From contig JAKSPB010000021.1 in the NCBI GenBank assembly GCA_024405215.1, positions 1 through 56,764 on the forward strand: a DNA stretch of 56,764 nt, in the 5' to 3' direction. How positions within the stretch are numbered: position 1 is the stretch's first letter; each line of letters opens with the position of its first letter. Below are positions 12,737-56,764 of the stretch, in pieces. A program made the position numbers and the translations under genes. The notes beneath the pieces were generated by a model, which was not told where the DNA came from, ran no database searches, and saw only the letters and a program-made list of their open reading frames with translations. Source of the DNA: Lentisphaeria bacterium (GTDB lineage Bacteria > Verrucomicrobiota > Lentisphaeria > Oligosphaerales > Oligosphaeraceae).

Positions 12737-13019
12737 CTGATAAATATAATACCGTGCGTTGGGTTGAATGCCCTTGATGGAAAGCAGGGGCGATGGACGG
12801 CACCTCCTTCAAAAATAGGGATAGGATAGGTTTTGAATAGTGGAGGATAATTTTTGTAAAATGGATAGATGGCTTATTCCAGGGGGGGCGGGGCGCTCGG
12901 GAGCAGGACGAAAAGCCATGGGTCCATGGGGTGGATGGGCGTCCACCTAATAAACCTCAATTATATTATCCATTCTTCCAAAATTCGCACCTCGAACTTT
13001 TTTTCTTCTCTTCCTGAAA
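12737..13019. promoter_or_regulatory. Divergent intergenic region between larE and alr
   Basis: Both flanking operons must start here. A -10-like TATTAT for larE lies at 12746-12751 (minus) and TATATTAT for alr near 12962-12969 (plus). A hairpin GGTGGA-tgggcg-TCCACC occupies 12930-12947. The AT-rich part (12811-12870) has repeats such as ATAGGGATAGGATAGG, TTTTGAATAG and TTTTTGTAAAA that resemble degenerate R4 units. Confidence 0.45.
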
Positions 13020-25638: not shown

Positions 25639-25845
25639 ATGAAGAAGTTTTTGCTGATTGCCCTTTTGGCCGGTTTGTTCCTGTGCGCGGGATGCTATTG
25701 CGACCATCCCCATCATGATGGCCATGGCCCCGGAGTTGTTCGCCACGGGAGGAACCTCGGCAAGCCCCACAGGGCGTATCCCGTACCTGCCAAGGGGGTT
25801 CGCTTTGACAAGAGAACGCCGGCACCACGCCCCATCGGGCATTGA
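25639..25845 (+). CDS. Small His-rich lipoprotein
   Basis: 68 residues from the ATG at 25639, with GGAG at 25629-25632. The signal MKKFLLIALLAGLFLCAGC ends in a lipobox (LCAGC). The mature part begins YCDHPHHDGHGPG, with a cluster of His and Asp suited to metal binding, and is otherwise rich in Pro, Arg and Gly. No family recognised. Confidence 0.75.
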   Translation: MKKFLLIALLAGLFLCAGCYCDHPHHDGHGPGVVRHGRNLGKPHRAYPVPAKGVRFDKRTPAPRPIGH

Positions 25846-25857
25846 TTCGCGAGGTAG

Positions 25858-25970
25858 TTCTTGTATCGTTTTTGTATCGTCGGCGTTGTGCGAAATTCCG
25901 GGCTTGGGAAAACAAAGCTATCTCGGACAATCTGTCACGATACGAAAACGATTCAAGAACGATTCGAAAA
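25858..25970. repeat. R4: facing arrays of contiguous 11-bp repeats
   Basis: Direct units TTCTTGTATCG (25858-25868) and TTTTTGTATCG (25869-25879) face inverted units CGATACGAAAA (25938-25948), CGATTCAAGAA (25949-25959) and CGATTCGAAAA (25960-25970). All are contiguous 11-mers. The spacer between arrays is 58 bp. The same architecture recurs at 56492-56635. Confidence 0.75.
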
Positions 25971-26128: not shown

Positions 26129-26165
26129 CAGAGGCAATCGGCTGCGCCTGAAACGCGAAGGGAGT

Positions 26166-26211
26166 AAAAGGGGCTGTTGCAAAACCTCAATGTTTTGCGG
26201 CAGTCCCTTTT
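26166..26211. terminator. R1 hairpin
   Basis: AAAAGGGGCTGTTGCAAAAC (26166-26185) and its imperfect complement (26192-26211), loop ctcaat, with T residues on both outer sides when read outward. It is nearly identical in sequence to the copy at 6671-6716. Confidence 0.65.
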
Positions 26212-26213
26212 TA

Positions 26214-26298
26214 CATACTTGAGTTGCCTGCGCGTTCTGGTGGTGTTCGGGCACAGGACAAGGCCGTATCGTCAAGCAATAACGGAAACTTGGGTATA
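26214..26298. repeat. R2 MITE-like element, copy b
   Basis: Its reverse complement aligns over ~70 bp with 54133-54210 (shared: cgttattg, ttgacgatacgg, cttg-cctgt, gaacgcgcaggca). Ends ATACTTGAGTTGCC and (reverse complement) ATACCCAAGTTTCC form imperfect terminal inverted repeats. Confidence 0.65.
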
Positions 26299-26312
26299 TA
26301 ATTCTCCCAAAA

Positions 26313-26347
26313 AAAGGGGCTGTTGCGTGATTTGCAACAACCTCTTT
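26313..26347 (-). terminator. Terminator of the rha operon (R1-like)
   Basis: AAAGGGGCTGTTGC (26313-26326) pairs with GCAACAACCTCTTT (26334-26347). On the minus strand the stem is followed by a T tract. It lies 20 bp after the stop of the ACT-domain gene. Confidence 0.8.
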
Positions 26348-26367
26348 GTGCATGTTGGGAAAGAAGG

Positions 26368-26928
26368 TCAGATTTCGTTGGTGACCTTGAAGAGCGCCTG
26401 ATGGCGTAGTCCGACAGTCACCTTGGGCTGGAAGGCAAGTCGCATGCTGTTCTGCAACTTCTGGACATCCAGTTCGGCGGGAATCTGAATCTGCCAGATC
26501 ATGGTGTATTCACCGGTATGCGCCTGGCAGCAGGAAAGATCCACGATGTTGATCTTTCGTTCCTTCAGATATTCGGAGAGCATGGCGACCAGGCCGGGCT
26601 GATCCGGACCGCTGGCCGTCAGGATGTAGGTGTCGGAATCTTCGCCGTTCCGGGATGGTTTCTCCTGTTCTTCCTGGAAGGGCATGACACCGAAGCAGGC
26701 GCCTTGGAGGGCATTGATGCCCCGGAGGCTTTTCTGTACATCTTCGGTGGAAGTTCCTTCGGGAAATTCTCCCAGGAGGATCATGGAGAAGTAGCCGCGA
26801 AGGACCGTCTGGCTCACGTCCAGGAGATTTCCGCCAAGATGCCGGACGGCGGCGGAAACCTCGGCGACAATGCCGACCTGGTCCTGGAACATGACGGAGA
26901 TGACGTAGCGTTGGGAAAAGTCTCCCAT
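26368..26928 (-). CDS. Two-ACT-domain regulatory protein (GcvR-like)
   Basis: 186 residues made of two ACT domains: ~8-85 (RYVISVMFQDQVGIVAEVSAAVRHLGGNLLDVSQT) and ~100-180 (YILTASGPDQPGLVAMLSEYLKERKINIVDLSC). No catalytic domain. This is the architecture of GcvR-type proteins, which bind amino acids and act through other regulators. ATG at 26928 with AGGAG upstream. It is the last gene of the rha operon, 20 bp after rhaA. Its target is unknown; there is no glycine-cleavage gene here. Confidence 0.8.
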   Translation of the reverse strand: MGDFSQRYVISVMFQDQVGIVAEVSAAVRHLGGNLLDVSQTVLRGYFSMILLGEFPEGTSTEDVQKSLRGINALQGACFGVMPFQEEQEKPSRNGEDSDTYILTASGPDQPGLVAMLSEYLKERKINIVDLSCCQAHTGEYTMIWQIQIPAELDVQKLQNSMRLAFQPKVTVGLRHQALFKVTNEI

Positions 26929-55504: not shown

Positions 55505-55876
55505 ATGGAAAAAATCGTCTGGGTTTTGAAATCCGACTATGCCAATGAAGTGCGCTTTCAATCCTATCGCAAGAAGCATGAGCGGGAGTTGATTTCCTGC
55601 CTGGCGAACCTTGACAATCTACTGCATGCCTTGAATATGGGCCTTTCCCTGCAGGAAGCCCTTGGGCTAGGTTTCTTTCGTTCCGAAGGGGAAAACATCT
55701 ACCGCATTGGGCAAAGTGGTGTTGCGCACGCCAAAGAAACGCGACTTTATGTCTATGCCCGAATTACTGGTCCAGACATTCAAATTTTAACCATCGGTGA
55801 CAAGAAATCGCAACAACGCGATATTGATTGGTGCAAAAGGCTAGTTCGACGGTTTGAGGGGGAAAATGATTTTTAA
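55505..55876 (+). CDS. HigB/RelE-like toxin (phage Gp49-type)
   Basis: 123 residues, first gene of a pair whose stop overlaps the start of the antitoxin by one base (TAATG). The pattern (LGLGFFRSEGENIYRIGQSGVAHAKETRLYVYARITG, ending in ILTIGDKKSQQRDI) resembles the HigB/Gp49 toxin fold, which cuts mRNA at the ribosome; toxin-first order is typical of higBA. The local DNA is clearly more AT-rich than the rest, suggesting acquisition by transfer. Confidence 0.72.
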   Translation: MEKIVWVLKSDYANEVRFQSYRKKHERELISCLANLDNLLHALNMGLSLQEALGLGFFRSEGENIYRIGQSGVAHAKETRLYVYARITGPDIQILTIGDKKSQQRDIDWCKRLVRRFEGENDF

Positions 55877-56451
55877 TGGTTACGGTAACTGACATGAAAA
55901 GCAAGACATTTCATTCTGCTGGTGAGTTCATAGCCAAGCTTTGTGACGAACCACAATTGGCTGATAAGGTTTCCCAAGAGGTCCAAAAGAAAGAATTGAT
56001 GTCTCGTTTGGCTTGTGTTCGCGTGAAGAAGGGACTCAGTCAGCGAAAGGTTGCTGAAATCATGCAAACCAGTGTCAGTTCAATTTCTCGATTGGAGGAT
56101 ATGCGTGATGCGGATGTGAAACTAGGTGAGTTATATGCTTATGCTCATGCAATGAATCTTGATGTCTCGCTAGCCGTGGAAGACATGGAACTTCCTGTGG
56201 CTTTGCGCATCAAGCATTGCGTAGGACATGTAGAGGCGCTTCTCCAGCAGTTGACGGAATTGGCAAAAACTTGCGGAGATGACAAGGCCATTGTTGATCA
56301 TATCATTCGTTTCCGCGGCGAAGTGCTTTATAACTTCTTGCTCAAATACCTTTCCACGGGAGAGAATCTTTCCGAGGATATTTCCGTGCTCCCTCAAACT
56401 GCGGATAAAAAGCTTGACAGGAAAAACACGGAAATAAGCATAACAAATTGA
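55876..56451 (+). CDS. XRE-family antitoxin (HigA-like), extended
   Basis: 191 residues. An XRE helix-turn-helix lies at ~42-100 (LACVRVKKGLSQRKVAEIMQTSVSSISRLEDMRDADVKLGELYAYA). The N-terminal ~40 residues probably contact the toxin. A C-terminal extension of about 80 residues (ELPVALRIKHCVGHVEALLQ...) is longer than in most HigA antitoxins (~95-130). Coupled to the toxin by a TAATG junction. The R4 array begins ~40 bp downstream. Confidence 0.78.
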   Translation: MVTVTDMKSKTFHSAGEFIAKLCDEPQLADKVSQEVQKKELMSRLACVRVKKGLSQRKVAEIMQTSVSSISRLEDMRDADVKLGELYAYAHAMNLDVSLAVEDMELPVALRIKHCVGHVEALLQQLTELAKTCGDDKAIVDHIIRFRGEVLYNFLLKYLSTGENLSEDISVLPQTADKKLDRKNTEISITN

Positions 56452-56764
56452 AAATCAATTCTGTTTTAGCTAGTGTGTGTGGTTTATTGAGTTTTTGTAT
56501 AATCTTTGAATAGTTGCCATCGTTTTTGTATAGTTCCCTATAGTTTTTGTATCGTGATAGATAGGGTGGGATGGTTTTCCCAGGGCGGGATTTCCCCAAG
56601 GGGAGAACTATCCAAGAACTATCCAAAAACTATCACAGCCGTCCCATAATTTTGAAAATTGAGAAAAAAACTGATGAAATTGAACTCAAGGCAGCTTGAA
56701 TCTGCAAGACCCCCTTTTTGTGTGCAGGCTGTGTTAAGGCGGGACTGCCATTTTCTGTTGAACA
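56452..56764. other. Gene-free AT-rich stretch with R4 arrays at window end
   Basis: Beyond the R4 arrays (56492-56635), the last ~130 bp show no gene or structure that can be supported. Confidence 0.55.
56492..56635. repeat. R4: facing arrays of 11-bp repeats, second locus
   Basis: Direct, contiguous units: TTTTTGTATAA (56492), TCTTTGAATAG (56503), a 9-mer TTGCCATCG (56514), TTTTTGTATAG (56523), a 10-mer TTCCCTATAG (56534), TTTTTGTATCG (56544-56554). After a 53-bp spacer come inverted units CTATCCAAGAA (56608-56618) and CTATCCAAAAA (56619-56629). The inner and outer TGATAG/CTATCA hexamers also pair. Confidence 0.75.

Follow-up and report, generated by a model that had tools for sequence, protein, structure and literature searches.

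The closest described system is the GGGAATC heptamer of Xanthomonas, which forms dispersed intergenic tandem repeats; each genome has 70-75 pairs that face each other (Rehm et al. 2015; PMC4692102). These repeats are found 3' of genes on the coding strand, near or overlapping stop codons. They are not linked to insertion sequences and their role is unknown (PMC4692102). Direct repeats of another heptamer, TAACTGA, have a patchy distribution across phyla and are present in Beggiatoaceae, Cyanobacteria and Bacteroidetes (MacGregor 2015; PMC4679880). Among palindromic repeats, REPs are 20-40 bp long (PMC3733652). Outside bacteria, the Drosophila foldback transposon Galileo has inverted repeats that are internally repetitive (PMC3573991).

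The 11-bp repeat described here looks, from its sequence, like the same kind of element as the Xanthomonas gene-end repeats. It is set apart by its unit length and composition, its convergent bias and the presence of a shared core. A short unit, tandem arrangement, chromosome-wide dispersal and facing pairs at stop codons on the coding strand are common to both. The Xanthomonas unit is a G-rich, quadruplex-forming 7-mer, whereas the unit found here (TATAGTTTTTG) is 11 bp long, AT-rich and without G-runs, and is not a quadruplex-type heptamer. GGGAATC repeats are mostly associated with co-directional genes and most of their positions are common to two related Xanthomonas species; the present element favours convergent genes, has a shared core and belongs to a single species. 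The TAACTGA repeats are likewise dispersed intergenic short tandem arrays of patchy occurrence, with stop codons in all frames and an unknown mechanism (PMC4679880), but in Beggiatoaceae they mostly lie just ahead of start codons and do not form facing pairs. The element also resembles REP, BIME and REPIN sequences and MITEs, which are likewise short palindromic repeats dispersed between genes and often located 3' of them. However, REPs are small and linked to RAYT transposases, while the arms of the present element are tandem arrays that vary in length, and no link to RAYT was found. Galileo is a far larger eukaryotic transposon and the likeness is in architecture only. The original prediction stated that no feature type fits this sequence, but facing short tandem repeats just past stop codons were already known from Xanthomonas (PMC4692102).

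The window (the whole analysed stretch, 56,764 nucleotides) is contig C14 of a 2.98 Mb draft genome consisting of 82 contigs. At positions 25858-25970 two direct and three inverted 11-bp units face each other. The left arm (25858-25879, plus strand) consists of TTCTTGTATCG followed by TTTTTGTATCG, and the right arm (about 25938-25970, minus strand) contains three units which read TTTTCGTATCG, TTCTTGAATCG and TTTTCGAATCG on the minus strand. Between them lies a core, or loop, of 58 bp (25880..25937). Within both arrays the spacing is exactly 11 bp and the units are contiguous. This layout had been predicted, together with its location in a convergent region, and it was confirmed: none of 2000 dinucleotide-shuffled versions of the intergenic region contained a facing tandem pair. 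The proposed consensus TTYTTGNATMG is off by one base for two of the three inverted units, which have TTTTCG. Allowing up to two mismatches, GTTYTTGTATMGTT was matched 9 times in the window (0.38 expected), a number reached by 0 of 100 shuffles. The arms pair into a 24-bp stem (92%) and the predicted fold of this copy has an energy of -50.6 kcal/mol (z = -6.15). An Rfam search of the window returned no match. All five units, in both arms, carry C in place of the A typical of the family. This may have arisen by pairing or by template switching inside the palindrome, or may reflect common age.

The element is flanked on one side by a plus-strand ORF encoding a small lipoprotein-like protein of 68 aa (25639..25845), which had no match in a Pfam search and whose stop codon lies 12 bp ahead of the array. 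On the other side is a minus-strand gene for an ACT-domain protein, assigned by Pfam (26368-26928). Between this gene and the array the ACT gene has terminator-like hairpins of its own. Two such hairpins, of the GGGGCTGTTGC... type, are located at 26155-26215 and 26310-26350.

A second facing copy, less worn than the one at 25858, is present in the window at 56491-56635. Its left arm (56491..56556, plus strand) comprises the units at 56491, 56523 and 56544 and, between them, a degenerate unit, and its right arm (56607..56635, minus strand) contains the units GATAGTTTTTG GATAGTTCTTG. The core (56557..56606, TGATAGATAGGG...TTTCCCCAAGGGGAGAA) is homologous to cores found on contigs C12, C23 and C29. 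A helix-turn-helix domain protein is encoded just ahead of this copy (55876-56451), at the contig end. A third copy at about 12813-12862 (plus strand, AATAGGGATAGGATAGGTTTTGAATAG...) is one-armed and very degenerate. The original prediction had also considered that the arrays might be the ends of an element, but a larger element is not indicated, as both arms and the core fall within about 110-150 bp.

In the whole genome the unit and its variants occur at about 30-35 places as tandem arrays, which usually face each other, as counted by pattern matches rather than by a calibrated model. The genome-wide recurrence of the phased facing layout, which had been proposed as a check, was confirmed. 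An exact 13-mer had 30 genome matches and its reversed control had 0, while a 16-mer with up to three mismatches had 117 matches compared to 16 for the control. In all, 24 elements with at least two units were read; 17 elements have both arms. The largest (C29:3393) has ten units facing three. Arrays are interrupted by the start or end of contigs C12, C23, C29, C64 and C79, so the true length of some exceeds what is visible, and the repeat may also account for assembly breaks at several places.

Across the family, the left arm reads (AATAGGATAG)GATAGTTTNTGTATAG... and is C-poor, with the reverse complement forming the right arm. Units vary at their middle base (T, G or C) and the arms are 1 to 10 units long. 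Units differ at a mean of 1.46 positions within an arm and 2.0 between elements, as slippage predicts. Core sequences were compared between loci: 17 of 136 pairs scored higher than any of 680 shuffled comparisons (best score 39 vs 14), and the homologies occur in both direct and inverted orientation. A frequently found core resembles GGATTnCCCCAAnGGGGAAAACTATAC. Homology of several cores between loci indicates that copies have spread. The core of the 25858 copy is not among the clear matches between loci, and many cores have no detectable homology to one another.

The reading that fits these observations best, with a probability of about 0.6, is that the 25858 array is a worn copy of a dispersed repeat that is quasi-palindromic, restricted to this species and mostly found at gene ends between convergent genes, with arms growing by slippage. 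Each copy is about 100-250 bp long and consists of two facing arrays (sense GATAGTTTNTGTATAG) around a core of 20-75 bp. The number of units probably changed by replication slippage. Copies may have spread by ectopic copying, in a manner similar to REPs and MITEs, or by gene conversion; it is the shared cores that point to mobility, and the many cores without detectable homology would also fit repeated local origin. Copies would then persist where they are least harmful, that is 3' of stop codons. A dedicated DNA-binding protein would not be necessary to account for the repeat.

Purely local growth is a distinctly unlikely explanation for the whole family. In this scenario each array would have expanded from a short seed by slippage at its own locus, as in the long simple sequence repeats made of heptamers, similar to a microsatellite. 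The abundance of unrelated short arrays is consistent with it: in 300 kb of a sister species (G001) about 47 arrays with units of 6-13 bp were counted, among them several unrelated 7-mers and 9-mers, and further arrays of 7-mers and 9-mers are present at the ends of some contigs of the source genome (G000) itself. However, a single 11-mer recurs at about 30-35 loci, and the homology of cores, which lie outside the units, argues against local growth for at least part of the family. The other arrays of the source genome were found at L180:1-255, L174:1-101, L171:1-61 and L170:1-59, and comprise the 9-mers CGGACGGGT (28 copies), CAGGTCCGA and GTCCGACAG and the 7-mer AACAACT, which runs into a stop codon.

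The inverted arms, the multiple copies and the cores common to loci in both orientations would also be expected of a mobile element of the miniature inverted-repeat or foldback type that is mobilised in trans by a transposase with 11-bp sites in the arms. This is unlikely. No target duplication was seen by eye at elements with inverted arms, and the intergenic regions of the sister species have diverged too far to be used as empty sites. An autonomous partner was not identified: no cognate transposase was found, and the two Y1_Tnp genes have no unit nearby, which also speaks against a REP/RAYT system. The arms, moreover, vary from 1 to 10 units. The DUF3987 mobile locus of Bacteroidales, considered as a further candidate, is absent.

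The placement of the elements relative to genes was determined using a simple ORF caller, with ambiguous loci corrected by eye. Convergent context was found for 14 of the 19 elements with both neighbours known, compared to 44 of 264 neighbouring gene pairs in a 400 kb background (p = 3e-7). The exceptions are co-directional (the second site of L069, L070, L074 and L083) or divergent (L077). Arms usually start 0-40 bp past a stop codon, and in 33 of 38 arms (31 of 38 before manual correction) the unit is in the sense of the preceding gene (p = 4e-6). Many elements fill the entire space between two stop codons. TAG stops are commoner near arms (22/35 vs 117/275, p = 0.03). In L065 and L071 the final C-terminal codons (GATAGAATAGGATAA and AATAGAATAGGATAG) look as if they belong to the element.

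Convergent siting and sense-oriented arms just past stop codons are also what would be expected of a selected bidirectional gene-end element, in which the facing arms form a shared 3' hairpin that stabilises mRNA ends or stops transcription and read-through. This explanation is rather doubtful, although several observations agree with it. Element regions fold strongly, with median z of -4.2 and -3.4 on the two strands compared to -0.7 in element-free convergent regions, but inverted arms must produce such folding. The two arms of one element are more alike than arms of different elements (1.92 vs 2.23 differences, P = 0.005), a result that shared age or template switching would give as well as strict hairpin selection. 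In Xanthomonas, transcript starts or ends are more frequent at the similar repeats than at control sites (PMC4692102). The arrangement of the shared cores is, however, the reverse of an intrinsic terminator, in which a U-run follows a GC stem: on both strands a T-run precedes the stem and an A-run follows it. Terminator-like hairpins, as detected by a crude finder, are equally common in convergent regions with the element (7/14) and without it (11/23, p = 1). On these two grounds an intrinsic bidirectional terminator was rejected. The ACT gene next to the 25858 copy has its own hairpins, and the sister species does without the element. The repeat may nevertheless affect the stability of mRNA 3' ends or pausing. 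If the dispersed repeat is transcribed, a single copy would give both converging mRNAs the same 3' hairpin, as a by-product that may be mildly useful.

The search of relatives included two genomes of the same genus and 26 of the same family. With up to one mismatch the unit was absent from all of them except for one isolated match, which is at control level. An ortholog of the ACT gene is present in 20 of the 28 genomes searched (source genome counted). In G001 the 3' flank of this ortholog keeps a terminator-like hairpin but has no array, and in the other relatives that were read the sequence 3' of the ortholog differs and no such array is present. The hairpin in G001 resembles the two that lie between the array and the ACT gene in the window.

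A replication or segregation site, also suggested by the original prediction, would be expected to be conserved or rare, while what was found is a family of 30-35 copies that is missing from the sister species. A unique binding, replication or segregation site was rejected on account of the copy number and the absence in relatives. Replication origin iterons, which would form a conserved site near an initiator gene, were likewise rejected, with many copies present and no conservation beside the ACT ortholog. In the parC site of plasmid R1, ParR binds 11-bp repeats arranged in two clusters; these are direct repeats and form a single site beside parMR, whereas the arrays here face each other and occupy many chromosomal sites. 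The neighbouring genes examined with Pfam are not par genes, and a ParR/parC partition site was discarded. More generally, an array for a protein that binds side by side with one unit per helical turn, be it ParR/parC-like or a replication, segregation or nucleoid site, agrees with the exact 11-bp phasing and with the precedent of R1. It is nonetheless highly improbable given the about 30-35 sites, the degenerate copies and the placement at gene ends in the sense of the gene. The unit is absent from relatives, and the gene-end arrays of the sister species are built of 7-bp and 9-bp units instead. The predicted 11-bp phasing is real, but helical phasing is not a shared requirement, as these other unit lengths demonstrate.

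Arrays in G001 include the 7-mers AATGCTT, AATTCTC and ATTCCTC and the 9-mers CCTAGGAAG and TCCTATCCG, among others. Many lie no more than a few bases from a stop codon or are located at contig ends (stretches L120-L139). At two loci they occupy the orthologous gene end: G001 has an array of GATAGGACC at L127, the ortholog of L087:3410, and of TAATTCGG at L132, the ortholog of L068:3703, both of which carry the 11-mer in the source genome. The remaining ortholog 3' ends compared in G001 have no array or none nearby. The second genome of the genus, G002, has few arrays, and a limited sample of other family members contained a few.

A scan of contigs from other genomes found the unit mainly in Prevotellamassilia timonensis. 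Strain An873 (L088-L117) has about 25 copies of a dispersed repeat containing tandem TATAGTTTGTG units, with one inverted unit close to them (TGTATAGTTTGTGTATAGTTTGTGTATAGTTTGAAGCRCAAACTATACA). Although this species belongs to another phylum, TATAGTTTGTG is identical to a unit variant in the source genome, by coincidence or transfer. Two viral contigs have short runs of the unit without a clear link. Arrays of the GTGTATAGTTTGTGTATAG type were detected in Lagierella massiliensis (L099:6665 and L113:1780) and at L119:8762. The L099 array directly follows a 742-aa ORF which is phage primase-like by eye, and might represent replication iterons.

A family-wide process may be imagined which lays odd-length, lineage-specific tandem repeats of 7, 9 or 11 bp directly 3' of stop codons in a fixed gene sense, with the unit swapped between sister species and the position kept. 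This is quite a long shot. If true, the repeats would be added by an activity linked to gene ends, either transcription-coupled or templated, and not by random slippage. Since P. timonensis has dispersed arrays of the identical TATAGTTTGTG, such a process might even span phyla.

The preferred reading, a dispersed repeat whose arms grow by slippage, adds an AT-rich, 11-bp version found at convergent genes to the little-understood short tandem repeats of gene ends. Within one genus, two species differ in the unit present at the two orthologous gene ends examined. The origin of such repeats, and the way in which they settle after stop codons, can now be approached by comparison of strains.
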